40,416 nt of DNA, taken from a virus. The position numbers and the translations under genes are program-made. Below are positions 6,701 to 35,546 of the stretch, piece after piece. The notes below the pieces were generated by a model. That model was not told the DNA's origin. It made no database searches and saw only the letters and a list, made by a program, of their open reading frames with translations. How positions within the stretch are numbered: position 1 is the stretch's first letter; each line of letters begins with the position of its first letter. The stretch is from positions 1 to 40,416 of IMG/VR virus record IMGVR_UViG_3300008997_000086; one strand, given 5' to 3'.

Positions 6701-9700
6701 TGAACCACTTGAACCAGAACTTCCACTTGTTCCATCAGTACCACTCGAACCACTACTTCCACTTGAACCACTTGAACCAGAAGAACCACTTGTTCCGTCT
6801 GTACCACTTGAACCAGAAGAACCACTTGAACCACTGGAACCAGAACTTCCACTTGTGCCACTTACACCAGATGAACCAGAACTTCCAGAAGAACCACTTG
6901 AACCACTTGTTCCATCAGTTCCAGATGTACCATCCGTTCCACTTGAACCACTGGAACCAGAACTTCCACTTGTTCCACTTGTACCAGAAGAACCAGAACT
7001 TCCAGAAGAACCACTACTTCCACTTGTTCCGTCTGTACCACTTGTTCCACTTGAACCAGAACTACCAGAAGAACCACTTGTTCCGTCTACACCAGAAGTT
7101 CCATCAGTTCCACTTGAACCACTTGTTCCAGAAGAACCACTTGAACCACTTGTTCCAGAAGAACCAGAAGAACCACTTGTTCCATCTACACCACTTGTTC
7201 CGTCTGTACCAGAACTTCCAGAAGAACCACTTGAACCACTTGTTCCGTCTGTACCACTTGTTCCACTTGAACCACTTGAACCAGAACTTCCACTTGTTCC
7301 ATCAGTACCACTCGAACCACTTGTTCCAGAAGAACCACTACTTCCACTTGAACCAGATGTACCACTCGAACCACTTGTTCCAGCAACACCTGGAGCTCCT
7401 TCTAAATTTATTTCCCACGAAGTATATGTACCACTACCAGTATGAGATGTAGAATCAACACTAAAACTTCCATTACCACTATTATACGCCGTTACTTCAC
7501 CAACAAATTTATTACTATTATCATACGCTATCAGTGCAGATTGACCAGTAGTCCATGATAATCCAGTACCAATTGTTATTGTTACCGAAGTTGGATGTGA
7601 TGTTGGTATTGTAGTACTCGTAGAAGACGTTGTAGAGAATTTATCAGATACACCACTTGTTCCGTCTGTACCAGAACTTCCAGAAGAACCACTTGAACCA
7701 GATGAACCAGATGAACCACTTGTTCCATCCGTTCCACTTGAACCACTTGTTCCAGAAGAACCACTACTTCCACTTGAACCACTTGAACCAGATGAACCAG
7801 AAGTTCCACTACTTCCACTTGAACCACTTGTTCCATCAGTTCCAGATGTACCATCTGTACCAGAAGTTCCATCAGTACCACTTGACCCAGAAGAACCACT
7901 TGTTCCATCAGTACCACTTGTTCCACTCGAACCACTTGACCCAGAAGAACCACTTGTTCCATCAGTACCACTTGTTCCACTTGAACCAGAAGAACCACTG
8001 CTTCCACTTGTACCATCAGTTCCACTTGAACCAGAACTACCAGAAGAACCTGACGAACCACTTGTTCCATCTTCTCCTTTATCACCAGTTCTAGCGAAAG
8101 TTACGAGTATATCATCTCCATCTGCAAAAGGTGTAGCTTCATTCGAATCCACAACAGATATTGTAATATCAAAATAACCAGTTTCTTCTGATAAAGATGA
8201 TATTGTAGCTAATATAAATTTACTTGTATCAAATTTTTTCGATATTTTTACATGACCTTTTATAGTACTTGTGGAATCATCTATTGTACGTAGATAACTT
8301 TGAATATCCGTACCATCTATATCATTATCATCTATATAGATTCCTGTAGCACTATTTTGTGTAGCATTATCTAATCTTAACTTACCGCTACCAGGGTCGG
8401 AATTAGTTGTAGTAGTACTAAAGTCATATAGAAAACTTGCTCCACCAAAGTTTCCATCTTGTCCACTTGAACCAGAAGAACCACTTGAACCTGACGAACC
8501 ACTACTTCCACTTGTTCCATCAGTTCCACTTGAACCAGAAGAACCACTTGACCCAGATGAACCAGAAGAGCCACTTGTTCCGTCTGTACCACTTGTTCCA
8601 TCAGTACCACTTGTTCCACTTGAACCACTTGAACCAGAAGAACCACTTGTTCCGTCTGTACCACTCGAACCAGATGTTCCGCTCGAACCACTTGAACCTG
8701 ACGAACCAGATGTTCCATCCGTTCCACTCGAACCACTTGTTCCACTTGAACCACTTGAACCAGAAGAACCACTTGTACCACTGGAACCAGAAGAACCACT
8801 TGTTCCACTTGTTCCGTCTGTTCCACTACTTCCACTTGAACCTGACGAACCACTACTTCCACTTGTTCCATCAGTTCCAGATGTACCATCTGTACCAGAA
8901 GAACCACTACTTCCACTTGAACCACTTGAACCACTCGTTCCATCAGTTCCAGAACTTCCACTTGAACCACTTGTTCCATCAGTTCCAGATGTACCATCTG
9001 TACCACTTGAACCTGAAGAACCACTACTTCCACTTGTTCCATCAGTTCCAGATGTTCCACTACTTCCACTTGAACCACTTGAACCACTCGTTCCATCAGT
9101 TCCAGAACTTCCACTTGAACCACTTGTTCCGTCTGTACCACTTGAACCAGAAGAACCAGAACTTCCACTTGTTCCTGCAGGCCCCTCAACACCACCAAGA
9201 TTAAATTCCCACGATGCATATGTACCACTACCAGTATTAGATGTAGAAGCTAATTCTATTACACCTGTACCACTATTATATGAATTTACTGTACCTTGAA
9301 ATTTGTTACTATTATCTTTTGCTACAAGAGCTGTTTGACCAATCGTCCATTGTAGACCAGTTCCTATAGTTAATGTGACTGTAGTTGGGTGTGATGTTGG
9401 TATAGCCGTACTTGTTGAAGATGTAGTTTCGTACGCATCACCAGTTAATCCACTTGAACCACTTGAACCACTGCTTCCACTTGAACCTGACGAACCACTG
9501 CTTCCACTTGTACCATCTGTTCCACTTGTTCCGTCTGTTCCACTTGTTCCATCTGTTCCAGAACTTCCACTTGAGCCACTTGAACCACTTGTGCCACTTG
9601 AACCAGAAGAACCAGATGTACCATCAGTTCCACTTGTTCCATCAGTTCCACTTGTTCCATCAGTTCCACTCGAACCACTTGACCCAGAAGAACCACTTGT

Positions 9701-11602
9701 TCCATCTGTTCCACTTGAACCACTTGAACCACTTGAACCAGAAGAACCACTTGTTCCATCTGTTCCACTTGAACCAGAACTTCCAGAAGAACCACTTGTA
9801 CCATCAGTTCCATCAGTTCCACTTGTTCCAGCGGCACCTGTATCACCTTTATCACCAGTTCTAGCAAAGGTTACAATTAAATCATCATCATTTGCGAATG
9901 GTGAAGCAGTATTACCAGATACATGAGCAACAGTAACTTGAAAATAACCAGTTTCTTCTGATAAAGCTGATATAGTAAATAATAAAAATACATCAGTATT
10001 AAATTTTTTCGATATTTTTACATGACCTTTTATAGTAGATGTACTATCATCTATTGTACGTAGATAACTTTGAATATCTGTAGAATCTTTGTCACTATCA
10101 TCTATCGCGATTATGGTAGCAGAAGATTGTGTAGAATGATTAAGTCTTAACGCACCAGTTCCAGGGTCTTGCATCGTAGTAGCTGTAGCAAAATCATATT
10201 CAAATGAAGCACCACCAAAGTTTCCATCTTGTCCACTTGAACCAGAAGAACCACTTGTTCCATCAGTTCCACTTGTTCCATCAGTTCCACTACTTCCACT
10301 TGAACCTGACGAACCACTTGAACCACTTGACCCAGAAGAACCACTTGTTCCGTCTGTTCCACTTGAACCACTTGAACCACTTGAACCTGAAGAACCACTA
10401 CTTCCACTTGTTCCATCTGTTCCACTTGAACCAGAAGAACCACTTGTTCCATCAGTTCCACTTGAACCTGAAGAACCAGAAGAACCAGAAGAACCACTTG
10501 TTCCATCTGTACCACTTGTTCCGTCTGTTCCAGAACTTCCACTTGAACCACTTGAACCACTTGTTCCGTCTGTACCACTTGAACCACTTGTTCCACTTGA
10601 ACCTGAAGAACCAGAAGAACCACTACTTCCACTTGTTCCATCAGTTCCAGATGTACCATCGTCACCAGCTACACCTTCTAAATTTACAGACCATGACGCA
10701 ATAGTACCAGTACCAGTATTAGATATACTTTCACCAACCATTACTCCAGTACCAGAATTGTAACTGGTAACATCCATTAAAAATTGTTTTGTTGCATCAC
10801 CCGTTTTAGCTACAAGAGCATTTTGACCAGTACTCCAAGCTAAACCTGTACCAACCGTTATTGTTACTGTAGTTGGATGTGATGTTGGTATTGCTATACT
10901 TGTACTCGATGTTGTTACAAAAGTATCAGAAATACCACTGGTACCATCAGTTCCATCTGTTCCACTTGTTCCAGAAGAACCACTACTTCCACTTGAACCA
11001 CTTGAACCTGATGAACCAGAAGTTCCACTTGACCCAGAAGAACCACTTGTTCCATCAGTTCCAGATGTACCATCCGTTCCACTTGAACCACTGGAACCAG
11101 AAGAACCACTTGTTCCAGAAGAACCACTACTTCCACTTGAACCACTTGAACCACTTGAACCTGACGTTCCATCTGTACCAGAAGTTCCATCAGTTCCACT
11201 CGAACCACTTGAACCACTTGTTCCATCAGTTCCACTCGAACCACTTGTTCCACTTGTTCCGTCTGTACCAGAACTTCCAGAAGACCCAGAAGAACCACTT
11301 GTTCCATCTACACCACTTGTTCCATCTGTACCACTTGAACCACTTGTTCCATCAGTTCCACTTGACCCAGAACTGCCAGAAGTTCCATCAATTCCACTTG
11401 AGCCTGACGAGCCAGAACTTCCACTTGTTCCGTCTGTTCCAGACGTACCATCAGTTCCAGATGTACCATCTGTACCACTTGAACCAGAAGAACCACTTGA
11501 GCCAGATGAACCTGACGAACCACTTGAACCAGAACTTCCACTTGTTCCAGATAACGCGGCTATCGCATCTTCGTCTATTTGCTTTTTTTCTAATAATGCC
11601 AT
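3758..11602 (-). CDS. Giant collagen-like tail fibre with peptidase S74 C-terminus
   Basis: This 2614-residue protein is mostly Gly-X-Y triplets (GTS, GSS, GTD), the collagen-like pattern that folds as a triple helix. Two globular modules alternate three times. Module A, about 92 residues, starts with TTSSTS.aIPTSHPTTVT and is near residues 222-314, 717-808 and 1316-1408. Module B, about 130 residues, runs from NFGGASF to FARTGDKG and is near 456-589, 1048-1177 and 1683-1817. Residues about 2006-2355 include GDQG/GYQG/GHQG triplets. After 2362 comes a fibre-tip region, then an S74 chaperone domain from S2515 (SDERLKKDI), expected to trimerise the tip and cut itself off there. The N-terminal 17 residues are not collagen-like and probably attach to the virion. 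It is probably a receptor-binding fibre or baseplate appendage. The start lacks a strong ribosome binding site. Confidence 0.92.
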   Translation of the reverse strand: MALLEKKQIDEDAIAALSGTSGSSGSSGSSGSSGSSGSSGSSGTDGTSGTDGTSGTDGTSGSSGSSGSSGIDGTSGSSGSSGTDGTSGSSGTDGTSGVDGTSGSSGSSGSSGTDGTSGTSGSSGTDGTSGSSGSSGTDGTSGTDGTSGSSGSSGSSGSSGSSGTSGSSGSSGSSGTDGTSGTDGTSGSSGSSGTSGSSGSSGSSGSSGSSGTSGTDGTDGTSGISDTFVTTSSTSIAIPTSHPTTVTITVGTGLAWSTGQNALVAKTGDATKQFLMDVTSYNSGTGVMVGESISNTGTGTIASWSVNLEGVAGDDGTSGTDGTSGSSGSSGSSGSSGTSGSSGTDGTSGSSGSSGSSGTDGTSGTDGTSGSSGSSGSSGSSGTDGTSGSSGSSGTDGTSGSSGSSGSSGSSGSSGTDGTSGSSGSSGSSGSSGSSGSSGTDGTSGTDGTSGSSGSSGQDGNFGGASFEYDFATATTMQDPGTGALRLNHSTQSSATIIAIDDSDKDSTDIQSYLRTIDDSTSTIKGHVKISKKFNTDVFLLFTISALSEETGYFQVTVAHVSGNTASPFANDDDLIVTFARTGDKGDTGAAGTSGTDGTDGTSGSSGSSGSSGTDGTSGSSGSSGSSGSSGTDGTSGSSGSSGSSGTDGTSGTDGTSGTDGTSGSSGSSGTSGSSGSSGSSGTDGTSGTDGTSGTDGTSGSSGSSGSSGSSGSSGSSGLTGDAYETTSSTSTAIPTSHPTTVTLTIGTGLQWTIGQTALVAKDNSNKFQGTVNSYNSGTGVIELASTSNTGSGTYASWEFNLGGVEGPAGTSGSSGSSGSSGTDGTSGSSGSSGTDGTSGSSGSSGSSGTSGTDGTSGSSGSSGSSGTDGTSGTDGTSGSSGSSGTDGTSGSSGSSGSSGSSGTDGTSGTDGTSGSSGSSGSSGSSGTDGTSGTSGSSGSSGTSGSSGSSGSSGTSGSSGTDGTSGSSGSSGSSGTSGSSGTDGTSGSSGSSGSSGTSGTDGTSGTDGTSGSSGSSGSSGSSGSSGTDGTSGSSGSSGSSGSSGSSGQDGNFGGASFLYDFSTTTTNSDPGSGKLRLDNATQNSATGIYIDDNDIDGTDIQSYLRTIDDSTSTIKGHVKISKKFDTSKFILATISSLSEETGYFDITISVVDSNEATPFADGDDILVTFARTGDKGEDGTSGSSGSSGSSGSSGTDGTSGSSGSSGSSGTSGTDGTSGSSGSSGSSGTSGTDGTSGSSGSSGTDGTSGTDGTSGTDGTSGSSGSSGTSGSSGSSGSSGSSGSSGTSGSSGTDGTSGSSGSSGSSGSSGSSGTDGTSGVSDKFSTTSSTSTTIPTSHPTSVTITIGTGLSWTTGQSALIAYDNSNKFVGEVTAYNSGNGSFSVDSTSHTGSGTYTSWEINLEGAPGVAGTSGSSGTSGSSGSSGSSGTSGSSGTDGTSGSSGSSGSSGTSGTDGTSGSSGSSGSSGTDGTSGVDGTSGSSGSSGTSGSSGSSGTSGSSGTDGTSGVDGTSGSSGSSGSSGTSGTDGTSGSSGSSGSSGSSGTSGTSGSSGSSGSSGTDGTSGTDGTSGSSGSSGSSGSSGVSGTSGSSGSSGSSGSSGSSGTDGTSGSSGSSGSSGSSGSSGTDGTSGSSGSSGSSGTSGSSGTSGSSGSSGSSGSSGSSGSSGSSGTSGSSGTSGSSGTSGSSGVDGNFGGASFYYTFESNTTNANPGAGDLRLDNATQNASTGIYICDTDENANDISSYLQTIDDSTSTIKGHVKISNKTDTSQFILWTISSLSDLTGYFDVTVSPVDSSASNPFSGGEDVVITFARTGDKGDSGTSGTDGTSGSSGSSGSSGSSGSSGTSGSSGTDGTSGSSGSSGSSGTSGSSGTSGSSGTDGTSGSSGSSGSSGSSGTDGTSGSSGSSGSSGSSGTSGSSGTSGSSGSSGTSGSSGSSGSSGSSGSSGSSGTSGSSGTDGTSGSSGSSGSSGTSGSSGTDGTSGSSGSSGSSGSSGTSGSSGTSGSSGSSGVDGDTGATGAQGDQGDVGATGAQGDQGHQGDQGYQGDQGNTGSTGSTGAKGDQGDTGATGASGTSGSSGSSGSSGSSGSSGSSGNSGTSGSSGSSGSSGSSGSSGVTVSGTSGSSGSSGSSGSSGSSGTTVSGTSGSSGSSGNSGTSGSSGSSGAQGDQGYQGHQGDQGYQGDQGDQGDQGYQGNQGNQGDVGAKGDQGDIGATGAGGTSGSSGSSGSSGSSGSSGSSGSSGSSGTSGSSGSSGSSGTSGSSGSSGSSGSSGTSGTSGSSGSSGSSGTTVSGTSGSSGSTGAKGDQGDQGHQGDQGHQGDQGDQGDQGYQGNQGNQGDVGAQGDQGNTGSTGAGGTSGSSGSSGVISLATDANNRVITSDGDGTGTAEATFTYDTSAGLRIGDFARSGNSTYISMSDTVGNIELSTVGVGSIGDAKGFSLGTYLSVDDVNEVARLQSEGTIFIGDDDWVGYGNGTHIEVNDTNQQISMSATLGVYVSTLSTGAAIDVGADKNGKLQLHSSDERLKKDIFEISQSLDTIKGLRGVTYKWKTPDEGNARNNALDTKTYYGFIAQEVTSSDAHGITFTDREGFLGLNLSQVIPILVNAVKELEERVTELENK
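4147..4216 (-). repeat. 70-base segment identical to 37437-37506 (fibre tip region)
   Basis: The partner of the segment in the S74 fibre copy 1. It lies just before the S74 domain of the giant fibre, so recombination here could swap chaperone and tip modules between fibre genes. Confidence 0.85.
4530..11560 (-). repeat. Collagen-like Gly-X-Y coding repeat tract
   Basis: Nine-base units such as GGT-TCA-AGT and GGA-ACA-AGT variants (plus strand ccacttgaacca, ccacttgttcca) recur hundreds of times, broken by six non-repetitive windows at about 10660-10936, 9835-10234, 9176-9451, 8071-8459, 7379-7654 and 6152-6552. Synonymous third-base changes are scattered through the units, so the tract is not a recently expanded perfect repeat. 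It remains prone to recombination and to short-read misassembly, so its exact length should be treated with care. Confidence 0.9.
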
Positions 11603-16682: not shown

Positions 16683-18293
16683 TTAAACGTAATTAACATC
16701 AGCAACGATAACTTTACCATAGAACTCAGGTCTTACGATTTTCTTCGCATAACGAGTCATAACACCTTTTCTTGGCGTAAAGTTTGTTGGGTCATAGACC
16801 AACGGAGTCATGATAAGTGGTACATACGGAGCGTATACAGCACCAGTTTCTAAGAAATTACTTCCTCTGAAACCAACAAGTATTACGTTCTCGTGCATGT
16901 ATGGATTCTTGTAGACCGTAAAACGGTTGTTCAATAGTCCAACTTTTTGAACACCCATTGCGAATGAACTATTAGCAGCATTACCATCTGAATCAGATGC
17001 ATATCCAGGGATAGACTCAATGATAGTAGCAACTTCAGGACTTACGACCATAAAGTTAGCTCCACCACGTAGAGTCTTCTGATGAATAGCATTAGATACA
17101 GCTTGTATCTTATTACCGAGAGTCTGGAACCAAGTTCCTTTTACATAAGCTGATGCATTAGCAGATGATTCTGCGAAAAGAGCGGTAGAAGAATTATACT
17201 CATATCCTACTCTAGCAGACCAACGTTCTGTTTTAGCATTAGCATTACCCATCAACATATCAAGGATTTCCAAATCAATTTCCATTGAAATGTACTCAGA
17301 TAACATTGCAGTTAACTCAGCTTCTGCGTCAACAGAATGATAAGCGTTAAGGTCTTGAGCTAACTCAGGAGTCCATACAGCTTTCAATTTACGAGTTTTT
17401 GCAACAATCGGAATAGATTTCATTTGGATATCTATTTCTGGAATACCAATATCCGTTGCTGGTTCGGTTGGTGAAGAATCTTCAAAATCACCACGAGTAA
17501 CATCGGTTGGTGCTTTGTGATACTTCACATAGATATTTCCATCAACTTCGTACGCACCAGAAGTCTTTACAACAAAGTTCCAGTTTGAACCATCCCAACT
17601 TGAGTAAGCAGGATAGTAGTCAGCGATAGCCGCGGTTGATGAACCAGAAATTTCAAAAGCTCTAACGCCATCGAAATCTGGATTTGTCATACCATCGTCC
17701 GCAAGAGCGACAGTAACTTTTCTCAGGTTATCAAGAGAAGAACTCAAAGATGGTTCGAAATCAACATCACCCCATACAACAGAAGCTGAACTATAGCTTG
17801 TTATTGTTGCAACAGATTCGTTGATTGAATATCCAAATTTACCTGCCCCATATAGACCACCAGAAGCGTCAGCATCAGAACCAGAAGTGTTACCATGAAC
17901 ATCTGAGTTTTGAGTGTGACCTGGTTGTGCGGTACCATATTTGAAATCAAGGTAAAAAATAAGTCCTGAAGGAAGGTTCATTGGCTGAACAGATACGAAA
18001 TCTTGTGCAGCTAATTCACCAAAAATCCTACGTACCAAAGGAAGAGCAACACCACTCCACTCTTCAGAGTTAGCAGTTGTGCTTGTTTTAGAAGACTCAT
18101 CAATTAACTGACGAGCTTGGTTTTCCAAAAGAGTAGCCATACTCATGACTTTAGTTTCGGAATCTATTCCTTCGAGTAATCCAGTGGGCTCCCACTTTCC
18201 TACTAACTTACGAGTTTCCTCTAACCGTTCCTGATATGGATTATAGCCATCCATAAGGCCTTCAATAGATTTTAAATTACTATTTTTAGACAT
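16683..18293 (-). CDS. 23: Major capsid protein (T4 gp23-like)
   Basis: This 536-residue protein (T4 gp23 has 521) forms the hexamers of the head. The first 66 residues look like the pro-peptide, ending LIDE|SS at E66|S67, which fits the gp21 rule [L/I]-x-E|[A/G/S] and falls almost where T4 gp23 is cut (E65). The mature part begins just before EEWSGVALPLVRRIFGEL, a hallmark of the family, and ends in PLVYDPTNFTPRKGVMTRYA and PEFYGKVIVAD. The gene has an AGGAGA site, follows the gp22 scaffold gene and ends in a strong terminator. Expression should be very high in late infection. Confidence 0.97.
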   Translation of the reverse strand: MSKNSNLKSIEGLMDGYNPYQERLEETRKLVGKWEPTGLLEGIDSETKVMSMATLLENQARQLIDESSKTSTTANSEEWSGVALPLVRRIFGELAAQDFVSVQPMNLPSGLIFYLDFKYGTAQPGHTQNSDVHGNTSGSDADASGGLYGAGKFGYSINESVATITSYSSASVVWGDVDFEPSLSSSLDNLRKVTVALADDGMTNPDFDGVRAFEISGSSTAAIADYYPAYSSWDGSNWNFVVKTSGAYEVDGNIYVKYHKAPTDVTRGDFEDSSPTEPATDIGIPEIDIQMKSIPIVAKTRKLKAVWTPELAQDLNAYHSVDAEAELTAMLSEYISMEIDLEILDMLMGNANAKTERWSARVGYEYNSSTALFAESSANASAYVKGTWFQTLGNKIQAVSNAIHQKTLRGGANFMVVSPEVATIIESIPGYASDSDGNAANSSFAMGVQKVGLLNNRFTVYKNPYMHENVILVGFRGSNFLETGAVYAPYVPLIMTPLVYDPTNFTPRKGVMTRYAKKIVRPEFYGKVIVADVNYV

Positions 18294-19751: not shown

Positions 19752-20072
19752 TTAACTAAGTTCGTAATCTCCATAGTCATCTGATAGTTTCATTTTTAGT
19801 GCATCAGCTAAATCTTCGAGTGACGTATGAAAATTCTCATCATCATCTGTTCTCATTCCAGCTGTTATTTTAAAACCAACAACGTTTTTACCCTCAATGT
19901 CTGCTAACATACCTTGTTTCGTACCATCTAAGTAAAATACCTTACCTTTCATCTTACCAAACTTTTTAAGTTTACTAATTGGTATTTCTTTTCCTAAAAA
20001 TATATCAGTTGATTCTGATAATTGTGTTTTGAATAATCTTTCGTAATTTTCTTTTAAAAAATGTTTTGTCAT
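19752..20072 (-). CDS. Small protein with predicted head-targeting leader
   Basis: This is a 106-residue protein with no recognised fold. The N-terminal 20 residues (KHFLKENYERLFKTQLSE) form a probable amphipathic helix ending L-S-E|S at E20|S21, a gp21-type cleavage site. The remaining 86 residues contain KLKKFGKMKGKVFYLDGTKQ and GKNVVGFKITAGM, suggesting a small beta domain, and end in an acidic DDYGDYELS tail. It starts at the stop of the preceding gene (one-base overlap) and precedes bS21. An internal head protein is the best guess. Confidence 0.6.
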   Translation of the reverse strand: MTKHFLKENYERLFKTQLSESTDIFLGKEIPISKLKKFGKMKGKVFYLDGTKQGMLADIEGKNVVGFKITAGMRTDDDENFHTSLEDLADALKMKLSDDYGDYELS

Positions 20073-20735: not shown

Positions 20736-21449
20736 CTATTTTTTGGGTTGTTCTTTTCCTTCTTCACCCTTTGGGTCAGTACCAACTGACTTGGCTCGTT
20801 TTAATCTCTCATCTCTTTTGGCTTGTATATCAGACCGAACATTATTCATCTTATTTTCATCATTATTGAACGCCGCCGTAACAAATTCCCACTTTAATGA
20901 GTATTCTTCTTTTCTTATTTCTAAATCTTCTATTAAATTTTGTAATGCAACATAATTTTTATCACCAGCTTTTGTTTGTGATTGTAATGCACCCAATCTT
21001 TTTATCTCATCATCTATTGCTTTATTATATGTAGCTTTAGCATTAGATTGGTTATTGATATATGTTGCAGAAACTTTAGTGTATCCAACTCTACCACCAG
21101 TTGCACGTCTTTCTTGGTCTTCTTTACCCCTAATAGCCGCTAAACTATCTATATTAGCACTAACAGATTTTGTTTTAGTTTGTTGTTTCTGATATTTGGA
21201 TTTAGGTACAATAAATTTATCACCACTCAACAAAGCTTGATGTCTCCATCCATCTATATCAGAACTTGTTATTCCTTTCGAAACCTTGGTTGCTAAGTCA
21301 AATAAACCTTTATCTTGTTTTCTTTGACCTGTTTCACCACCAGCTACTTTAGAGTAATCTTGAACGGGATGACCACCTTTGGAAACTGGTGCTTCCATAA
21401 GTTCACGAATACATTCTTTAATTATTTTTCTAATATCAGTTTGGTTCAT
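20736..21449 (-). CDS. Putative internal head protein, paralogue of the 21463-22845 product
   Basis: I choose the start at 21449 (MNQTDIRKII), which has AAAGG upstream and avoids overlap with the previous gene; a longer reading reaches 21596. The 237-residue protein begins with an amphipathic helix ending E-L-M-E|A (E19|A20), a gp21-type site. The body (residues about 45-230) aligns with the upstream paralogue: DGWRHQALLSGDKFIVPKSK with DAWRTDALTDKRAIIGKSK, then VSATYINNQSNAKATYNKAI with VSASYINQKSAAKSAYNSAI, then KRAKSVGTDP with KRAKSVGEDP. It is Lys/Arg- and Gln-rich and helical, as expected for a DNA-associated internal protein. This pair looks like a tandem duplication. Confidence 0.7.
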   Translation of the reverse strand: MNQTDIRKIIKECIRELMEAPVSKGGHPVQDYSKVAGGETGQRKQDKGLFDLATKVSKGITSSDIDGWRHQALLSGDKFIVPKSKYQKQQTKTKSVSANIDSLAAIRGKEDQERRATGGRVGYTKVSATYINNQSNAKATYNKAIDDEIKRLGALQSQTKAGDKNYVALQNLIEDLEIRKEEYSLKWEFVTAAFNNDENKMNNVRSDIQAKRDERLKRAKSVGTDPKGEEGKEQPKK

Positions 21450-21462
21450 TATTTTTTTACCT

Positions 21463-22845
21463 TTATTTTGATGGTTGCCAGAAGCCGTCTCGCATTGATT
21501 CGGCAGGTGGTATATTAGACCACATCCATTCATGGTCTCTTGCTCCTTTAGGTATGGTAGCTTGATAAGTTTGTTTTCCATCGGTAACTTTATCACCTTC
21601 TCTCACTTTGATACCTCTTTCCCATTCTTGAGTTCTTCCACCGATAGACCCGGCCGGGTCTTCTCCGACAGACTTAGCTCTCTTCTTTATTGTATCTCTT
21701 TTAGATTCTATATTTGTACGAGCGTTATTCATAGCAGTTGTATTACCATTATAAGCCGCTGTCGCGAAATCCCATCTTAATGCATATTCTTCTTTTTTAT
21801 ATCCTAAATCATCAATTAAATTTTGTATAGCTACATAAGTTTTTTCAATTGTCTGACCACCACCTTTTATATAAGCAGCTTGAAGAGTTTGTAGAGCCGT
21901 AATCTCAGCATTTATTGCCGAGTTATAAGCACTTTTAGCAGCAGACTTTTGGTTGATGTAAGAAGCACTCACCTTCATTTTAGCACCACCTAATGCGGTT
22001 GACCTTCCACCTTGGGATTTTCTTTTAACATCATCAGACGCACGTATTGAAGCTAGATTGTCAAGTGTACCACTAACAGCTTTTTGTTTAGTTCCTCTAC
22101 CACCTGGAGTTCTTGTACCTTGGTATTTAGATTTTCCGATAATTGCTCTCTTATCAGTTAATGCATCCGTTCTCCAAGCATCAATTTTACCTAAGTTCTG
22201 ACCTTTTATTATAGACGCTAGTGCAGAAGCTTTAGTAGTTCTAAACGATTTTCTTGACCCAACATTTCCACCTTTCCAACCTCTTTCTGAACCTGCTCTT
22301 TCACCAGCATCACCACCTAATGAAGTATAAGACCGTAATGTATATCCACCTTTAGATATTCCACCAGGTAGAGCTGGTGAAGCCCCACCAGCAGATTTGG
22401 AACCAGGAGCTTTACCTTTTCCTTCTAAAATTTCACCTATCATTTGTTTTATCATATATTTAAATTGAGATTTTTTCATTTTACTTTCTCCAAAAATTTG
22501 TTTATAATTATTATCTGGATTTATATATTTAATTCCAGCTCCACTTTGTTGTGTACTATCAACTTTATGTTTTTTCATCTTTGATGGAACACTTGTCATT
22601 CCATTTCCAATTTGTTTTTCAAGAACTTCTTCTTCATAGTCTTCATATACACTCTTAATTCTTTTAGGTTTTATTGCACTACCTTGTACTTTTGCTTTAG
22701 CTTTTTCTTCTACTTCATTAGCCAATTTAGCATTTTTGTTTGGGAAGTATCCTCTTCCATCAAACTTATCACCCTTTTTACCAGAAAAACTATTGGCTTC
22801 TTTAGAAACTTGAACCAACGTCTTCCATTTTTTAGACTTTTCCAT
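21463..22845 (-). CDS. Putative internal head protein with 122-residue N-terminal extension
   Basis: The open frame gives 460 residues. The start at 22845 has no ribosome binding site; instead the AT motif abuts it. An internal ATG at 22479 (residue 123, MKKSQFKYMIKQMIGEILE) has GGAG eight bases upstream and would give a 338-residue protein whose leader ends I-L-E|G (E19|G20), exactly like its paralogue downstream. So this may be two products, or a fusion of a short gene (residues 1-121, Lys/Glu-rich, helical) to the head protein. The body is the paralogous domain (DAWRTDALTDK to KRAKSVGEDPAG). The last 45 residues (EGDKVTDGKQTYQATIPKGA, then WMWSNIPPAESM) form a small extra beta domain resembling a carbohydrate-binding fold, absent in the paralogue. 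Confidence 0.65.
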   Translation of the reverse strand: MEKSKKWKTLVQVSKEANSFSGKKGDKFDGRGYFPNKNAKLANEVEEKAKAKVQGSAIKPKRIKSVYEDYEEEVLEKQIGNGMTSVPSKMKKHKVDSTQQSGAGIKYINPDNNYKQIFGESKMKKSQFKYMIKQMIGEILEGKGKAPGSKSAGGASPALPGGISKGGYTLRSYTSLGGDAGERAGSERGWKGGNVGSRKSFRTTKASALASIIKGQNLGKIDAWRTDALTDKRAIIGKSKYQGTRTPGGRGTKQKAVSGTLDNLASIRASDDVKRKSQGGRSTALGGAKMKVSASYINQKSAAKSAYNSAINAEITALQTLQAAYIKGGGQTIEKTYVAIQNLIDDLGYKKEEYALRWDFATAAYNGNTTAMNNARTNIESKRDTIKKRAKSVGEDPAGSIGGRTQEWERGIKVREGDKVTDGKQTYQATIPKGARDHEWMWSNIPPAESMRDGFWQPSK

Positions 22846-22866: not shown

Positions 22867-23646
22867 TTAAAAAAGTCTTCGTTCATAGTATAAAGTCTTT
22901 TGTGTTTGTTTCCAACCACCAACTGTATCACCTTTTCTATTTCTAAAATACCAAATACCAGGTTTGGTTAAATCGTCAACAACTGATTTCCACTTGACTT
23001 TTAATTGTTTTAACATCTTTTTAGCATCTTTTAAAGATGGTATATTGATTATAAATTTCTTTGGCATATTCTTATCCATTGGTTTAGACGGGCCTCCACC
23101 TCCGAACCAACTTGATGTACCTCTACCCCAAGCTTCAAGAAATAATGGGTCTGGTATCTCCAAAAACTCATAAACAATATTACGAACATCACTTGGAAAT
23201 CGTGTATCTTGTCCAAAAGATTCAATATTACTTCTAAATACAGTTGCAGAATCACCAGTACCCAAATTTAAAGCATTTATAACAATCTCATCCTTATCTT
23301 TATGTAATAAAACTGTATATAAAGAATTATATGTGTGACCACCACCATCATCTCTTTTAAAAAATGTTCTACCAATGACAACATATGATTTATCATAACC
23401 AGATTGTTGAATAGTGTTAGATACATCTCCGGCAACACTACCAACAAAGTCACCACCAACTACAGCCCCAGTATCAGCTTCTAATAGTATTTCTTTTACT
23501 ATCTTTTCTACTTCTGAACGCATCCTTTTGGATATCTCTATAGCTTTTAATTGTTTCAACGCTTTTTCCTTTGAATCATGTGTTCCAAGTCGTTTCCCGC
23601 CTTTTTTAGGATAGACTGCCCACTTACTACCAATCTTTTTAATCAT
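22867..23646 (-). CDS. Hypothetical protein with LGTHDSKEKA motif and gp21-type site
   Basis: This 259-residue protein begins with a short beta module, SKWAVYPKKGGKRLGTHDSK followed by EKALKQLKAIE, a widespread phage motif in which a K-x-LGTH loop leads into a helix. It is followed by a helix (RMRSEVEKIVKEILLE) ending L-L-E|A at E56|A57, a gp21-like site. After that comes a domain of about 200 residues with YVVIGRTFFKRDDGGGHTYN and a C-terminal LDDAKKML-like helix plus GIWYFRNRKGDTVGGWKQTQ. No enzyme motif is recognised. It overlaps the previous stop by four bases (ATGA), so translation is coupled. Confidence 0.65.
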   Translation of the reverse strand: MIKKIGSKWAVYPKKGGKRLGTHDSKEKALKQLKAIEISKRMRSEVEKIVKEILLEADTGAVVGGDFVGSVAGDVSNTIQQSGYDKSYVVIGRTFFKRDDGGGHTYNSLYTVLLHKDKDEIVINALNLGTGDSATVFRSNIESFGQDTRFPSDVRNIVYEFLEIPDPLFLEAWGRGTSSWFGGGGPSKPMDKNMPKKFIINIPSLKDAKKMLKQLKVKWKSVVDDLTKPGIWYFRNRKGDTVGGWKQTQKTLYYERRLF

Positions 23647-25195: not shown

Positions 25196-25816
25196 TTAAA
25201 TACCACTTAATATATCAGAAATTATAGATTCGGTTTTACACCACTTATCACAAATAGTTCCATCTTCCCTTACATCTTCTCTATTAACACTTTCGTTCAT
25301 TGGATGCATAAACGCACCATGTGTAGATGGATTGGATACGAAATCAAAAGCTATCAATTCAAAGTCTTTTTGTACTTCTACTGTATCATCATCTTTACTT
25401 TCTGATACTGAACCCATACCGCGGGAAGAAATACCAAGTTTAATACCAGCTTTAAATAGTTCTTTTAATATATTTCCAGCAGGTGTTGTTAAAACTTCAA
25501 TCTTACCAAGTAGATTGTCTCCTTCCCACCACATATCTCTTACATTGTGAGAAACATTCTTTAAATTAACAACCGAAGACTCTGGATGGTCAAGTTCTCC
25601 CATCGCTCGAGCTTCCTTTACAAATTCTTTTGTATATTTTGTAGATTCTCTCATTAAAATCTCTTTTGGATATACTCTTCCATTTTGATTCTTTGAGTTA
25701 GCTCTTTGTAGTACACCACTAACAATCAATTTACCAGAATTATCTGTAATTGATTCGTTTATATGTTGTGATGATACTTCAAAAAGTAAAGTATCTATTA
25801 AAAGTGATTTCGTCAT
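25196..25816 (-). CDS. 21: Prohead core maturation protease (T4 gp21-like)
   Basis: This 206-residue serine protease (T4 gp21 has 212) activates inside the prohead and cuts scaffold, capsid and internal proteins after [L/I]-x-E. Recognisable blocks are the GVLQRANSKNQNGRVYPKE strand, the catalytic His in GELDHPES (H77), and the catalytic Ser region KLGISSRGMGS (S130/S131). A late ELIAFDFVSNPSTHGAFM follows. Its own N-terminus contains HINE|S at E21|S22, consistent with self-removal of a leader. It lies between core-type genes and precedes bS21, scaffold and capsid in the same direction. Confidence 0.93.
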   Translation of the reverse strand: MTKSLLIDTLLFEVSSQHINESITDNSGKLIVSGVLQRANSKNQNGRVYPKEILMRESTKYTKEFVKEARAMGELDHPESSVVNLKNVSHNVRDMWWEGDNLLGKIEVLTTPAGNILKELFKAGIKLGISSRGMGSVSESKDDDTVEVQKDFELIAFDFVSNPSTHGAFMHPMNESVNREDVREDGTICDKWCKTESIISDILSGI

Positions 25817-26652: not shown

Positions 26653-26895
26653 TCAAGAAACTCTTCTCAAATTTGGGTCAATAGCCAACATATATCCTAA
26701 GACTGTTGGTTGTTTATGACCACCACCATATCCAGCTTTCTTCTTTTTCTTCTTCTTACTTACCCAATATGGTGTTGTTGGTGGCCCTTCCCCACCATCT
26801 ATGTTAGCAGAAACTGATGCTTCATCTAAAACATCAAGTATCATCTGCTTCAACAACTCTTTAAGTTGTTGTTCCTTAGTTTTTTGTGATGACAT
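26653..26895 (-). CDS. Small protein with head-targeting leader
   Basis: In this 80-residue protein the first 25 residues (KEQQLKELLKQMILDVLDE) form a clear amphipathic helix ending L-D-E|A at E25|A26. The rest is Gly/Pro-rich with a Lys run (about seven lysines near residues 47-53) and then GYGGGHKQPTVLGYMLAIDP. After cleavage a 55-residue basic peptide would remain, like the small internal peptides of T4 heads. It overlaps the end of the previous gene by 20 bases. Confidence 0.65.
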   Translation of the reverse strand: MSSQKTKEQQLKELLKQMILDVLDEASVSANIDGGEGPPTTPYWVSKKKKKKKAGYGGGHKQPTVLGYMLAIDPNLRRVS

Positions 26896-29645: not shown

Positions 29646-31223
29646 TTATATTAACCATTCTAATGATTCTTTACCATCACCAACATCCATTTGCCAACTA
29701 TCGTTTTTATTGACATCTTCGGTATCATAAACACCTTGATGGGATTGAAAATAATCGAATGAACGTTTTGTAAGTTCTATACCTTCTGCTCTCAATCTTA
29801 GAGCCGTATCTCTAACCCACAAACCTATAGCTAAACTCATAACAAGGTCATCATTGTACCCTACCATAGCTTCAGCTCTACTATTCTTATATATAAATAC
29901 AAACAACTCATCAATTAATCGTTGTGAATTAACGCTTACTGACTTTTCTCTGAAATATTCCTCTAATTTAGCAATAACAAGTGGTCTTGTCTTTGCTGTC
30001 ATACTAAATCCTGGAACCATGTTCCTATCTTGACTTCTATATCTATTTGTCAATTGTTTTGCTGTATCTACATACATTAAATCTTTTGATGTATAAAATA
30101 AATTCGGATATTCTGAATCTATTATGGTTTGTATAGCAGACCAACCAATATTATTGTTTTCCACAATTAATAATGCTTTATTATACTCTGTAGCAACACT
30201 TACACACATATTACCAAAATCTTTAGTTCCAATTTTACCTTTATATTCTGCTACTTGTTTCATTGACTCTACATCAATCACATGAAACGCTGAAAAGTCT
30301 GTACCATCTCCTCTACTAACATCAGCACTTAACACATAATCTTTAGAATAATCTGGATATTCCCATATCCACATATTAGAATCAAATCCTCTTCTTTCAA
30401 TTGGTTCTTTTACAAAATTTTCTCTATAATCTTCTATTATAAGACCATCAATTACAGTTTGACCAGAAGTTATAAAACTACAATCACACTCTTGAGCGGC
30501 TAACGATGGCCCTAATAATAAATCTTGTTTACTTCTCCACTCTTCTCCTCTTTCTGGGTGTATTGTCCAATGTAATTTTATAAAGTTCCATCCATTTATC
30601 CCATCTTCGGCATCCATCCAAGTTCTATGAAACCAATTACCAACACCATTTGGTGTAGATAGTGCAATACATTGACCACCCGTAGATAGTGTTTGTGATG
30701 CGGCAGCCCATATTGTATCAATCTTGTCTATAAATGCAGCTTCATCAAGAACTAATAGAGATAGTGCTTCTGAACGACCAGCTTCTTCCGAACTTGCTAC
30801 AGCTTTAATTTGTGAACCATTTTTATATCTCAAAGATAATTTGTTATCTTCAACACAACTTTGTTTTAACCAAGATGGTAAATTAGCATGCATAACACGA
30901 ACTTTTGTTACAAGATTTTTAGCAGTATCTTGTTTTGTAGCAATAACAAGAATATTTTTATCTTGATGAAATGTCATTAACCAAAGTGAATATCCAGCTG
31001 TTAATGTTGATATACCCAACTGACGTGCTTTTAAAATAACACTAAGTCTATTATCTTTAAAGTCCTCCAATGTTTTTTCTTGAAAATCCCATAATTGAAA
31101 TGGTATTTTGCCTTTAATTGGATGCTGTATCATACAATACTTCTTTAAAAAGTATACTGGGTCTTTGGCACACTTGACGTATTCAGACCTAACTAATTGT
31201 TTTAAGTCTTGTTTATCACTCAT
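29646..31223 (-). CDS. 17: Terminase large subunit (T4 gp17-like)
   Basis: This 525-residue motor protein packages DNA and cuts concatemers. The ATPase half shows the Q-motif region PFQLWDFQEKTL (41-52), Walker A KARQLGIST (65-73), and Walker B LSLLVLDEAAFID with D160 and E161, then ALSTPNGVGNWF. The nuclease half shows VLSADVSRGDGTDFSAFHVI (first acidic residue D301), IVENNNIGW and a late NDDLVMSLAIG with the acidic pair. All catalytic residues seem intact. It is shorter than T4 gp17 (610), mostly at the ends. The start codon overlaps the stop of the preceding small gene. Confidence 0.96.
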   Translation of the reverse strand: MSDKQDLKQLVRSEYVKCAKDPVYFLKKYCMIQHPIKGKIPFQLWDFQEKTLEDFKDNRLSVILKARQLGISTLTAGYSLWLMTFHQDKNILVIATKQDTAKNLVTKVRVMHANLPSWLKQSCVEDNKLSLRYKNGSQIKAVASSEEAGRSEALSLLVLDEAAFIDKIDTIWAAASQTLSTGGQCIALSTPNGVGNWFHRTWMDAEDGINGWNFIKLHWTIHPERGEEWRSKQDLLLGPSLAAQECDCSFITSGQTVIDGLIIEDYRENFVKEPIERRGFDSNMWIWEYPDYSKDYVLSADVSRGDGTDFSAFHVIDVESMKQVAEYKGKIGTKDFGNMCVSVATEYNKALLIVENNNIGWSAIQTIIDSEYPNLFYTSKDLMYVDTAKQLTNRYRSQDRNMVPGFSMTAKTRPLVIAKLEEYFREKSVSVNSQRLIDELFVFIYKNSRAEAMVGYNDDLVMSLAIGLWVRDTALRLRAEGIELTKRSFDYFQSHQGVYDTEDVNKNDSWQMDVGDGKESLEWLI

Positions 31224-31445: not shown

Positions 31446-32006
31446 TTAGTTCTCCTTAGTTTCTATTTTAGATAGTTCTAAATCTATCTTTTCTAATAAT
31501 TCTTTATAATGTCCTATAGCTTCATCGGCTTGTTCTATAATTTTTTCTTTATTAACATCCCATTTTTCTTTTTCAACGGAATGTCCATCAGGATTAATTT
31601 GATTATAAAATGTAACATCTCCTTGATTCTTCCATTCAGTAACATTTTGTAATTGTTCTTCTACAAAAGAACGTTGATTTAATAAAACTTTCTTTTTAGC
31701 CCATTCGTGATATGTTCCTTCAATACGAAGTTTATTTTCAATTACAACTTGACAATCAAAACAATGTCCAAATAATCTCCACATTTTATCGTCTAATTTT
31801 TTCTTCATTACCTTATCACATTCTGGACAAAACCAAGGTACTCGTGCTTCTGCCATAATATCAGTTAAATGACTCTTCTGGTCACCCTTTTTCTTTTTCT
31901 TGATATCTGACATACTTACAAATATTCTTTTTTCTGGTGTACCACCATCTAAAATACTTTGTAACGCTCTGTTTTGTCTTTCTGACTCTTTACTATATCC
32001 TGCCAT
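31446..32006 (-). CDS. Zinc-ribbon protein upstream of terminase
   Basis: This 186-residue protein carries a CxxC...CxxC pair (C60-P-E-C63 and C82-F-D-C85) with KKLDDKMWRLFGH between them, a typical zinc ribbon. It is followed by VVIENKLRIEGTYHEWAKKK and a Lys/Glu-rich C-terminal coiled coil (residues about 150-186). The N-terminus is basic. Similar proteins occur near the terminase in marine T4-like phages without known role. Possible roles are terminase partner, DNA-end recognition or late transcription factor; none is shown. It sits seven bases after the 885-residue gene and one base before the small gene. Confidence 0.7.
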   Translation of the reverse strand: MAGYSKESERQNRALQSILDGGTPEKRIFVSMSDIKKKKKGDQKSHLTDIMAEARVPWFCPECDKVMKKKLDDKMWRLFGHCFDCQVVIENKLRIEGTYHEWAKKKVLLNQRSFVEEQLQNVTEWKNQGDVTFYNQINPDGHSVEKEKWDVNKEKIIEQADEAIGHYKELLEKIDLELSKIETKEN

Positions 32007-32013
32007 AATTATC

Positions 32014-34671
32014 CTATATGTACTTTAATAAACCTAAAATTTGATTAACTGGAGCAAAAGTACCAGTATATTTGTATAACTTACCATTAAAAGTAAATGT
32101 TATACCTTCTGTTGATGTTATAGTACCAAATCCACCTATTGATTCTAATCTCTTTAATTGTTTTTCTAATTTTTTTATCAAATTTAAATCACCACTACTT
32201 TGAACTGCTTTTATAGTGTCTTCTAAATCCTTTTTGATTTTTTGAGCTCCTTCGTCTGGGTTAGCGGTCAACAATTGTGTCATATTTAACATTATCTCTG
32301 TGCCAAGTCCTAAGAACAAGTCTTCCCAAGGTGTAATATTTTCTTTAAATTTTGCTTTATGGTCTTCTTTATCAGTAGTTAAAACCCAATCTAAAAATTT
32401 TGGAAATTTTTTCATATCCTTTTTAATTTGTGGAATCTTATATGACTTATCAAAGAATGCCCACCTTTTAACTAATCTAATAAACATACTTTCTGGTAAT
32501 TTAGTCTTAGTTCTCTTTAAAGCTTTGTTAATATACTCTGTCCAAAAAGCTTGATGATAGTCACCCAACGTGTTATTAGGTTTTAACTTATATTTTTTCT
32601 GTAAAGTGTTTAATTTACCAATATAGAATTTTTTACGATTTGAAAAGTCCTTTACTTTTGGTAATTCTACAACTGGTGGATATTCTATTTTATATTGAGT
32701 TTGTACATCCTTGTTAACTTGTTTAATCATACCAGTTAACATTCTTGCAAATTGAGAATAGTCACCTATTGCATTTCCTTTATCGTCATATTGAAGTACA
32801 CCATGAAATATCAATAATGATTTCTCATATGGAATCACATTTGCTGTTTTTGGATAGATAATTTCCAAAGACATAAATTGTTCACCCTCTTTAAAAATTT
32901 TATCTCTTTGTTTATCACTAATAGCACCTATAGCATCTTCTAAATCTCTCATAGCTCCTGCAAAAGCTTTGTGTAAATCACCTCTACCTGCAAACATCTT
33001 ACTAATACCATTCGTAGTTAACGCACTAGCACCCTTATTCATCAAATGACCTTTGTTTCTAGCCGCTATAAGTTTACCATTTCTCCAACTTATCATTATA
33101 TTCTGACCATCTGTCTTTTCTGTAGCTGGTTTTTCTTTACTAAGATTACCTTGTAGTGTATTAGTAATCATTGTTCTGAAATCTCTGAATGTTAAATTAT
33201 TATCATCAAATGGATGTGCTAAATGTCCATATGCTCCACCTTCTGTCATTAACCTTTTTACATCATCTACAATATCAATTCTTTCTTTTAATGGTTTTTC
33301 TTTTGGAAACTTTCTTTTCAACAATACGTTTAATGATTTTATAGCACTTTTATCATCCGAATGTAATCCTACATCAACATTATTTATAGAAACTGGTGTA
33401 TCAATTATAGCAGTATATCTATATTTACTACCACCCGCTTTTTTCTTTTTAAGTTTTACAGATTCTTTTAATTTAGCTTTCTTACCTTTAGTTCCTTTAT
33501 AAGACCATGTGGCTTTACCTTTACCATATTCTTCTGTTGGTTTTTGGGATATCTCAAGTCCTTTACCATCTTTATGCATCCATTTAAGTATTTCCCAACC
33601 AAGTCTTTCTGATATGCTTGTTAATCTTTCTAAATAATCCTTCGAGGCGTGTTTACTACCTGGTATAGAACCAACTCTTCCAAACGTAACATTAGATATT
33701 GGGTCATCAATCATAGTAAAATCCATGTCAGGGTCTAAAACTTCTGGTTCTTTATCTTTTATCATAAATTCAACAACAGACCAACCAGTTTTTTGCATAA
33801 ACCAAGGTACTGCATCTTTAGCTACTCTATAATAGTCTGAAAAATTTCTATAAAATGTTCCTGGCCCATCATCTGGTGCTCCACCACCTGCATTAGCACC
33901 ACGTTTGGAATTGGTAGTTAAAGTAGTAGAAGATTCTTGTATCATTTTTGGTACATCATTGTCAACACAAAAATTAGCTACAATTTCCTTAGTCAAAAGT
34001 ATACCATTTGGTCGCTTATGGTCGAACATCAATCTGTTCGTAATAAATTCATACATTGAGTTATCAAACTTACCGAAAATAACCTTAAATAATTTTTTCT
34101 TTTTCTTGTCATCTATATCTGGGGAACTTAAAAGTTTTCTAACTTGTGTTCCACTTATATTAGAACCACCCACCTTTAACTTAAAGGTTGGTACTATATA
34201 AATATACCCGTTATCTTCAAAACCCTTCAATTTTGTTACATCGCCAGTATATGGTTTAAAATATTTACCACCAAGTCTTTGACCATCCTTTTCACCCAAA
34301 CCAACTGCGACGGCCGTGTGTTCTTTATCGTATTTGGACAAGATATTAATTGGTGCATAAACATTTTTTTCTTGTACTATTTGATTTTTTCTGATATTAT
34401 ACATCTTACTAATAATTTTTTGTTTCTCTTTAAAATTAAAAGGATGTCTATCACCACCACTTACATTAGATGTAGCTATAAAAGTATCCTTAGCACCAAA
34501 CTCTTTTTGCATTTCTTTAAAAGTATTAAAATGTCCTGCGTGAAATGGTTGAAATCTACCAACATAAACACCAACAATTCTGTTTATACCTTTAGGGTCA
34601 GCACCATGTACCTTGGATTCTCCAAGAGTATCACTAACAATAGATTCTACGAGTTTTTTCATTCCCTTCAT
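32014..34671 (-). CDS. Nucleotidyltransferase-ligase fusion, predicted head-packaged
   Basis: This 885-residue protein has several parts. Residues 1-18 form a helical leader ending L-G-E|S (E18|S19). Residues about 30-215 are an HxGH nucleotidyltransferase: VGRFQPFHAGHF (37-48) and ISGTQVRKLL (172-181), the NMN-adenylyltransferase or cytidylyltransferase pattern. Residues 250-470 are unassigned. Residues about 480-885 look like a covalent nucleotidyltransferase (RNA/DNA ligase superfamily): motif I KTDG (K519), AARNKGHL, MSLEIIYP (about 600-607), then EGIT (E855) and KLYK (864-867), which could be motifs IV and V separated by a long helical insert. I infer NAD or nucleotide-related chemistry plus end-joining or adenylylation. 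No close named homologue is known to me. It overlaps the kinase-like gene by four bases. Confidence 0.75.
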   Translation of the reverse strand: MKGMKKLVESIVSDTLGESKVHGADPKGINRIVGVYVGRFQPFHAGHFNTFKEMQKEFGAKDTFIATSNVSGGDRHPFNFKEKQKIISKMYNIRKNQIVQEKNVYAPINILSKYDKEHTAVAVGLGEKDGQRLGGKYFKPYTGDVTKLKGFEDNGYIYIVPTFKLKVGGSNISGTQVRKLLSSPDIDDKKKKKLFKVIFGKFDNSMYEFITNRLMFDHKRPNGILLTKEIVANFCVDNDVPKMIQESSTTLTTNSKRGANAGGGAPDDGPGTFYRNFSDYYRVAKDAVPWFMQKTGWSVVEFMIKDKEPEVLDPDMDFTMIDDPISNVTFGRVGSIPGSKHASKDYLERLTSISERLGWEILKWMHKDGKGLEISQKPTEEYGKGKATWSYKGTKGKKAKLKESVKLKKKKAGGSKYRYTAIIDTPVSINNVDVGLHSDDKSAIKSLNVLLKRKFPKEKPLKERIDIVDDVKRLMTEGGAYGHLAHPFDDNNLTFRDFRTMITNTLQGNLSKEKPATEKTDGQNIMISWRNGKLIAARNKGHLMNKGASALTTNGISKMFAGRGDLHKAFAGAMRDLEDAIGAISDKQRDKIFKEGEQFMSLEIIYPKTANVIPYEKSLLIFHGVLQYDDKGNAIGDYSQFARMLTGMIKQVNKDVQTQYKIEYPPVVELPKVKDFSNRKKFYIGKLNTLQKKYKLKPNNTLGDYHQAFWTEYINKALKRTKTKLPESMFIRLVKRWAFFDKSYKIPQIKKDMKKFPKFLDWVLTTDKEDHKAKFKENITPWEDLFLGLGTEIMLNMTQLLTANPDEGAQKIKKDLEDTIKAVQSSGDLNLIKKLEKQLKRLESIGGFGTITSTEGITFTFNGKLYKYTGTFAPVNQILGLLKYI

Positions 34672-35546
34672 TTTCTATCCCTAAGTTTATCAAGTTTTCT
34701 TTTAATAGAATATCGTTTATCTTCTAATTTTTTCCAAACACCCTTAATTGGTGATGTTCCGGCTGGAAACCATTTAAAATACATTAATCTATCAACTAAA
34801 CCACTATCATTTTTACCTTCTTTAGCATATACTTTATATGCACCACTCATCAATTTAGCATAGTTTTCAATAATCTTAGCACCAACACCTCTACCAACGT
34901 TTTTCTCTCTCCACTTATCTCTTGCAACAGCTAATTCTGAATTTATTTCCAAATATACAATAATATTATGATAACCTTCTTCACGAGTTTGTTTCAATCT
35001 ACGTAAAATCTTTGGTGGTTTAGACGCTACTGTGTCTATTACAAGAAGTTTACCAGCCTTATGTACTTTAGTTTTAAACAAATCCTTTTCATATTCTTTA
35101 GCTATATCTCTGATATCAAAGAACGATGCATAAAATGGTTTATACAATAGTTTATAAAAATTATTACTACCTTTATCTTTATTCTGTAACCACCAATTAA
35201 AATCAAAAGGAAATGTAACTATTTTACCACGATTTGATGTATATGCCGAATTACCAACAAATTCACCAAATCCCCGTTCACTACTACGTTCTTCATCTGG
35301 TGCTACTTTCAACAAGTGTTGGTAGTGTAACATAGCAGTATCATATTGTAAAGCCATAACTTGTGAATCAGAATTAGTTACATTATATCCAGTAAATCCT
35401 GGTATGTAACTTGAACCCTCATTATTAATCCAAGTAGACTTACCAGCCGCAGGTAAACCCATCAGAACAACACAAAGTTTTCCTGTATCTTCAAGAAACT
35501 CACGAAGTTCTGATTTTATCATTTCCTTTAAGATTTTTTTGTTCAT
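34668..35546 (-). CDS. P-loop kinase-like protein (zeta-toxin / polynucleotide kinase type)
   Basis: In this 292-residue protein the leader MNKKILKEMIKSELREFLE ends just before the P-loop, GLPAAGKST (30-38), so removal at E19|D20 would leave the kinase core whole. D at the cut position is less typical than A, G or S. A strand with LLVIDTVASKPPKILRRLK and a lid-like region (LAVARDKWREKNVGRGVGAK followed by IIENYAKLMSGAY) resemble zeta-toxin and polynucleotide-kinase folds, which phosphorylate sugars, nucleotides or nucleic-acid ends. The substrate is not evident. It lies between lysozyme and the ligase-like fusion with overlapping stops and starts, so the three are probably one operon. Kinase and ligase pairs often work in nucleic-acid repair. 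Confidence 0.7.
   Translation of the reverse strand: MNKKILKEMIKSELREFLEDTGKLCVVLMGLPAAGKSTWINNEGSSYIPGFTGYNVTNSDSQVMALQYDTAMLHYQHLLKVAPDEERSSERGFGEFVGNSAYTSNRGKIVTFPFDFNWWLQNKDKGSNNFYKLLYKPFYASFFDIRDIAKEYEKDLFKTKVHKAGKLLVIDTVASKPPKILRRLKQTREEGYHNIIVYLEINSELAVARDKWREKNVGRGVGAKIIENYAKLMSGAYKVYAKEGKNDSGLVDRLMYFKWFPAGTSPIKGVWKKLEDKRYSIKRKLDKLRDRK

Follow-up and report, generated by a model that had tools for sequence, protein, structure and literature searches.

A modular polyprotein family of T4-like phages with an RNA-ligase-type domain, a candidate head-packaged RNA-repair kit

In phage T4, the internal head proteins bear short N-terminal targeting leaders, and the protease gp21 cleaves after L/I-X-E; one head protein, Alt, is an injected enzyme (PMC9026906). 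The closest concept to the protein treated here is that of the polyvalent proteins, which the portion of the source drawn on here describes as long, modular and variable domain strings (Iyer et al., 2017; PMC5512222). We analyzed a 40,416-base stretch of viral DNA (IMG/VR record IMGVR_UViG_3300008997_000086, positions 1 to 40,416; hereafter the window), which encodes an 885-residue chain with an HxGH nucleotidyltransferase module, a module termed DDGP and a C-terminal ligase-fold domain. With a probability of roughly 0.55, this chain is a polyprotein that is packaged into the phage head, cut by a gp21 homolog, injected and engaged in the repair of tRNA or other RNA. No description of the ligase polyprotein was found in the openly licensed literature, which omits many journals. 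The features of the chain are as follows (an arrow marks a candidate cut).

32014..34671, minus strand: polyprotein open reading frame (ORF), 885 residues, coordinates including the stop codon, intact, with an ATG start
34618..34671, minus strand: N-terminal leader, residues 1-18 (MKGMKKLVESIVSDTLGE↓SKV), capsid-targeting-like, ending in LxE (LGE18)
34030..34587, minus strand: HxGH nucleotidyltransferase module, residues 29-214, nicotinamide mononucleotide adenylyltransferase (NMNAT)-like
34531..34560, minus strand: active-site motif GRFQPFHAGH, residues 38-47
33934..33942, minus strand: candidate prohead-protease site IQE246↓SST, between the HxGH and DDGP modules
33568..33876, minus strand: DDGP module, unnamed, residues 266-368
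33253..33567, minus strand: linker, residues 369-473, with candidate sites LKE403 and LKE463
32017..33252, minus strand: ligase-fold adenylyltransferase domain, residues 474-885
33115..33117, minus strand: codon of K519, the predicted lysyl-AMP nucleophile, in motif I KTDG (519-522)
32113..32754, minus strand: helical insert between motifs IIIa and IV, about residues 640-853 (approximately 210 residues), from the secondary structure of the model
32071..32109, minus strand: motifs IV-V, residues 855-867 (EGITFTFNGKLYK)

The first-pass annotation of the window had proposed that the chain joins an HxGH nucleotidyltransferase to a ligase-superfamily domain, with K519 as the nucleophile and a large insert before motif IV. 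Both domains were recovered, by their motifs, a Pfam match and a fold match, respectively, albeit a simple fusion of the two proved too narrow a description, as the family is variable and comprises many modules, and the chain is a short form of it. In the alignment of all complete ligase domains collected, which reaches down to approximately 35-37% identity, K519, D521, G522, R538, N539, E603, E855, G856, K867, T869 and G870 were invariant (227/227). The residues that mark the ligase superfamily, namely KxDG of motif I, E of motif III, EG of motif IV and K of motif V, are all conserved, including the four (K519, D521, E855 and K867) on which the proposal had been staked. Motifs I, IV (EGIT, 855-858) and V (KLYK, 864-867) stand as first assigned, whereas SLEIIYP (601-607), taken for motif IIIa, more likely bears motif III (E603), with motif IIIa in the downstream LLIFHG (619-624). 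No convincing Pfam, PHROG or NCBIfam family was found for the C-terminal half; the single Pfam match in that half, Mre11_2nd (E=0.0046, under the cutoff), was rejected, as was a match to OSCP (likewise below the cutoff). The best PDB sequence match of the ligase profile, ribosomal eS6 (E of approximately 1e-3), falls in the Lys-rich helical insert and is judged compositional because the fold and the motifs disagree with it.

The ligase half was then modeled with AlphaFold and compared with solved structures, and ligases were matched. In the first model (30 sequences, pLDDT [predicted local distance difference test] of 75, weaker fold matches), K519 was paired with catalytic Lys residues in T4 Rnl1 (5tt6, K99) and Naegleria Rnl (6vte, K170) and with K92 of Palaeococcus Rnl (8uch), and was in register also with Naegleria Rnl 6vt8 and 6vt9. 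The second model of residues 474-885, built from 42 more diverse sequences, reached a pLDDT of 85.8 and a predicted template modeling score of 0.79, and the suspected large insert appears in it as a helical segment. When this model was searched against the PDB with Foldseek, Palaeococcus RNA ligase came first (E=1.2e-3, probability 0.99), and the first 29 rows were polynucleotide ligases throughout, nearly all of them RNA ligases. The best VIA-align match was Naegleria RNA ligase (Z of 8.2, 185 residues aligned, 4.3 Å), and all of the 50 rows shown were RNA ligases, DNA ligases or capping enzymes with RNA ligases in the lead. The modeling thus predicts an adenylyltransferase fold, in which the motif I Lys is placed as in solved ligases. 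We give weight to the fold match because the superfamily is uniform among the matches, both ends of the model are covered and the invariant residues agree; likewise, the motifs are regarded as beyond chance because their residues are invariant in the 227 domains and the predicted fold matches ligases. As DNA ligases and capping enzymes are placed lower in the fold list, the ranking of the modeled structure points to an RNA ligase rather than a DNA ligase, even if a DNA-ligase or capping function keeps some likelihood. Altogether, we infer that the domain is a divergent ATP-dependent RNA-ligase-type enzyme acting on RNA.

Relatives of the polyprotein occur in at least 593 viral stretches, and 80 nearest relatives were retained for comparison; the carriers are T4-like viruses of bacteria, mostly marine. 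The relatives are modular and reach approximately 1,760 amino acids, with further modules upstream of the HxGH-DDGP-ligase core. In 38 full-length relatives, the core was kept while the upstream modules varied, with two exceptions: Microcystis phage Mel-JY01 has HxGH joined to the ligase, and in a jumbo phage the ligase stands by itself. The upstream modules comprise a P-loop kinase, a CCA-adding-type nucleotidyltransferase (PolyA_pol/CCA, E=1e-29; tRNA nucleotidyltransferase phrog_2244, 2e-62), an HD domain, a small SH-like module, Lys-rich modules and a ParB-like domain. The kinase module matches polynucleotide kinase (PNK) phrog_505 (1.7e-8); many relatives have a PNK-like module, and several have CCA-adding and HD modules. 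The kinase is fused to the polyprotein in 68 collected profile matches and is elsewhere encoded by a separate upstream ORF with its own leader, as in the window, in which it is a divergent relative of the fused module. Single cases of a retropepsin-like plus a Polbeta-like module (stretch L149), a TIKI/ChaN-like module (L132) and an NTN-like module (L037) were found as well, the last two being weak. In L149 (2500-3828), the retropepsin-like domain (NCBIfam RloA3, 2e-6) and the Polbeta-like nucleotidyltransferase are inserted between DDGP and the ligase. Several disparate enzymatic domains in one chain, variable among relatives, are what distinguishes polyvalent proteins, and both are observed here; an embedded peptidase, common but not universal in polyvalent proteins, was not detected in the window protein with Pfam, PHROG or NCBIfam.

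A scan with the ligase domain of the jumbo-phage stretch L152 retrieved zero relatives. With hhalign, a 446-residue hypothetical protein of Pseudomonas phage Deifobo (L266:1408-2745) aligned with the ligase profile over motifs I-III (E=3e-5), which suggests that the ligase family extends to PA5oct-like jumbo phages. The scan of bacterial genomes yielded one partial contig of a metagenome-assembled genome, which we read as a viral contig within the bin. Gene 183 of Flavobacterium phage immuto was considered as a cultivated relative and rejected, as it is without the ligase domain. This gene (L267:109-2832), lying upstream of the terminase gene, encodes a Polbeta nucleotidyltransferase-like start, an HxGH-like motif and two HExxH-like peptidase motifs.

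A number of observations weigh against RNA repair by a sealing enzyme. No Foldseek match in the PDB reached E<=0.001, and a VIA-align Z of approximately 8 is middling by the yardstick of the tool itself. By sequence, the ligase domain matched no known RNA-ligase family in Pfam, PHROG, NCBIfam or the PDB sequences, and its profile aligned with T4 Rnl2 insignificantly (hhalign probability 0.9%, E=0.06), though motif I is aligned. The chain stops shortly beyond motif V and is thus without the usual type of C-terminal domain. The retropepsin-like, TIKI/ChaN-like and NTN-like modules are ill-suited to RNA repair, and the kinase module could alternatively be a zeta-type sugar kinase or NadR-like. 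A polyvalent, head-packaged protein, of which the ligase-fold domain has a protein or small molecule as its adenylylation target, or modifies the ends of DNA or RNA instead of sealing RNA, and of which the modules serve several counter-defense tasks, would account for this module range (together with the Polbeta-like module of L149), for the absence of a C-terminal nucleic-acid-binding domain and for the different multi-domain protein near terL in phage immuto. This explanation has to face the precedence of RNA ligases over DNA ligases and capping enzymes in the fold ranking and the recurrence of PNK-like, CCA-adding and HD modules, and we regard it as unlikely, though deserving of serious consideration.

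The N-terminal module carries the HxGH motif and ISGTQVR (172-178), the latter corresponding to SGTxxR; Pfam CTP_transf_like spans residues 35-123 (E=2.4e-6, passing the family cutoff), and homologs carry the plain database annotation 'cytidyltransferase'. Archaeal and bacterial NMN adenylyltransferases are the nearest solved relatives of the module profile (7e-5). The window protein thus combines both motifs with NMNAT similarity, and it missed every NCBIfam NMNAT equivalog cutoff by a wide margin. Among the 144 family members with a recognizable motif, 47 have GPHH, GLHH or GIHH, with the first His replaced by Gly (e.g., L132 and L149), a replacement that may change or abolish the activity of the domain. 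The similarity to NMN adenylyltransferases, a kinase beside HxGH that resembles NadR and an NMNAT-like gene next to NAMPT and Sir2 in Serratia phage BF would be in line with a protein for the salvage of nicotinamide adenine dinucleotide (NAD). In such a protein, the kinase and HxGH domains would make up a pathway of the NadR type, NAD would be used or protected by the ligase domain, and host NADase defenses would be countered. We consider this very improbable: the kinase scores as AAA_33, zeta or polynucleotide kinase and not as ribosylnicotinamide kinase, neither NadV nor Nudix was found near the polyprotein gene within the window, the ligase and CCA modules are left without explanation, and about a third of the motifs, as counted above, have Gly in place of the first His.

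The leader of the window protein ends in LGE18, as the L/I-X-E of the T4-type internal head proteins does, in agreement with the head-targeting leader anticipated earlier, and [LI]xE was present in the leader of every full-length relative examined. The same motif was found in the linker preceding the DDGP module in 35/36 relatives, and LxE stands right before GGAYGHL in many relatives (LLE↓GGAYGHL), exactly ahead of the ligase, where the window protein has MTE477. In linkers and leaders together, 291 [LI]xE were counted against 129 expected from composition (2.25x), while inside modules there were 126 against 188 (0.67x); a linker/module contrast of this kind was not seen for eleven control patterns. 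Restricted to nine diverse representatives, the comparison gave 59 [LI]xE against 32 in shuffles (z of 5.4), and the observed/expected ratios in control proteins were 1.23 (terL), 0.77 (portal) and 1.06 (the 186-residue neighbor described below). The N-terminus of the standalone jumbo-phage ligase reads MKFLKSYEEFLNENLILE↓GG, a T4-like leader, and the separate kinase ORFs have leaders of like type ending in IIE↓GV or LNE↓GV.

The genes around the polyprotein gene are in the order endolysin, P-loop kinase, polyprotein, 186-residue protein, 73-residue ORF, terminase, portal, gp21-type protease, scaffold and major capsid protein, and the reading frames of the kinase and the polyprotein (32014-34671, minus strand) overlap by 4 bases.

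34668..35546, minus strand: P-loop kinase ORF, separate, with its own leader (Pfam, PHROG, kinase-module comparison)
29646..31223, minus strand: terminase large subunit, conserved downstream neighbor (Pfam, PHROG, synteny)
25196..25816, minus strand: gp21-type prohead protease, candidate processing enzyme (phrog_207, E=4.5e-56)
16683..18293, minus strand: major capsid protein, with LLE↓GI close to the N-terminus

The terL gene lies a short way downstream of the polyprotein gene in 226/231 loci, many of which are redundant. This synteny with head genes bears on a further explanation, in which the protein is an ordinary late cytoplasmic multidomain enzyme, neither packaged nor cleaved, and acidic amphipathic linkers give rise to the [LI]xE pattern. 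Homologs being annotated merely as cytidyltransferase fits such an enzyme, and the reversed pattern E.[LI] is likewise enriched in linkers (z of 4-6), which adds to the points against our preferred reading, as amphipathic-helix composition may cause part of the LxE signal. Such an enzyme would not, however, account for the depletion of [LI]xE within modules with a ratio of around 1 in control proteins, the motif in all leaders examined, the same leader type on separate kinase ORFs or the gene order, and we hold this explanation to be rather unlikely.

The 186-residue protein (31446-32006, minus strand), with a CxxC...CxxC pattern, sits between the polyprotein and the terminase in 227/231 loci and is a candidate small terminase or packaging factor. 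Small ORFs in the head region (19752-20072, 20736-21596, 22867-23646 and 26653-26895, minus strand) start with a basic amphipathic leader and then LxE, which would fit a phage that packages many internal proteins. A 2614-residue ORF (3758-11602, minus strand), adjoining the tail sheath gene and consisting mostly of SGSSGTSG-like tandem repeats with a 9-base periodicity, probably encodes a giant fiber-like structural protein. Among cultivated phages, terminase comparison places the window nearest to Microcystis phage Mel-JY01 and Flavobacterium phage immuto.

Returning to the head-packaged polyprotein, we infer the following course from the domain architecture, the candidate sites and the gene order. 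The polyprotein would belong to the internal head proteins of a T4-like myovirus; its gene would probably be expressed at the late stage alongside the head genes, and its leader would direct it to the prohead core. The gp21-type protease would cleave after the [LI]xE of the leader and of the linkers between modules, freeing the NMNAT-like nucleotidyltransferase, the DDGP module and the RNA-ligase-type enzyme, which would enter the cell together with the phage DNA. The ligase and the PNK-like kinase, the latter from its own leader-bearing gene in the window and fused in many relatives, may then heal and reseal tRNA or other RNA cut by host defense nucleases. A CCA-adding enzyme, an HD domain or a Polbeta-like nucleotidyltransferase may join the repair in some relatives, and the HxGH domain probably supplies NAD or another adenylylated product as support.

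Host anticodon nucleases act early in infection, and T4 relies on expressing its own repair genes once it has entered the cell. We propose tentatively, at somewhat short of even odds, that T4-like phages have a polyprotein strategy in which a single chain comprises a whole RNA-repair kit (kinase, nucleotidyltransferases and a new RNA-ligase family). The chain would be taken up into the head, separated into its enzymes there by the prohead protease and injected, and repair could then begin ahead of phage gene expression. If true, ready-made repair enzymes delivered at entry would be a pre-emptive counter-defense, the prohead protease would act as a polyprotein processor, the known RNA ligases would gain a divergent family marked by its unusual insert, and a role would be suggested for 'cytidyltransferase'-labeled proteins in hundreds of viral contigs.

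The portion of the account of polyvalent proteins drawn on here (PMC5512222) presents them as proteins of phages and conjugative elements thought to be co-injected with DNA and to counter host defense, and they have zeta-like kinase and Polbeta nucleotidyltransferase domains in common with the polyprotein family. In that portion, peptidases embedded in the chain release the domains, and RNA ligases are mentioned solely as not associated with 2H domains; in the polyprotein, the candidate sites fit a gp21-type protease acting in trans, and a conserved, ligase-like module forms the C-terminus. T4 Alt and IPI-III have a leader cut by gp21 after L/I-X-E, like the predicted leader of the polyprotein, but the T4 internal head proteins are one mature unit each, whereas the polyprotein comprises several enzymatic modules with candidate sites in between (PMC9026906). 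The ATP-dependent RNA ligases (Naegleria Rnl, T4 Rnl1/Rnl2, archaeal Rnl and fungal Trl1) share motifs I, III, IV and V and the core fold with the polyprotein ligase domain, which differs from them in the insert ahead of motif IV, a very short spacing between motifs IV and V, the missing domain past motif V and the lack of a detectable sequence-profile match. The HxGH domain is common to the NMN adenylyltransferases NadM/NadR of phages, and a kinase adjoins it as in NadR, but in the polyprotein it is joined to ligase and RNA-type modules, with no Nudix and a kinase from another family (PMC9503650). Finally, T4 Pnkp/Rnl1 and the RNA repair sets of jumbo phages have kinase, ligase, CCA enzyme, HD and Polbeta components in common with the polyprotein family; in the jumbo-phage survey, the repair enzymes are separate genes or small fusions, whereas the polyprotein is one chain with a leader (PMC7824862).
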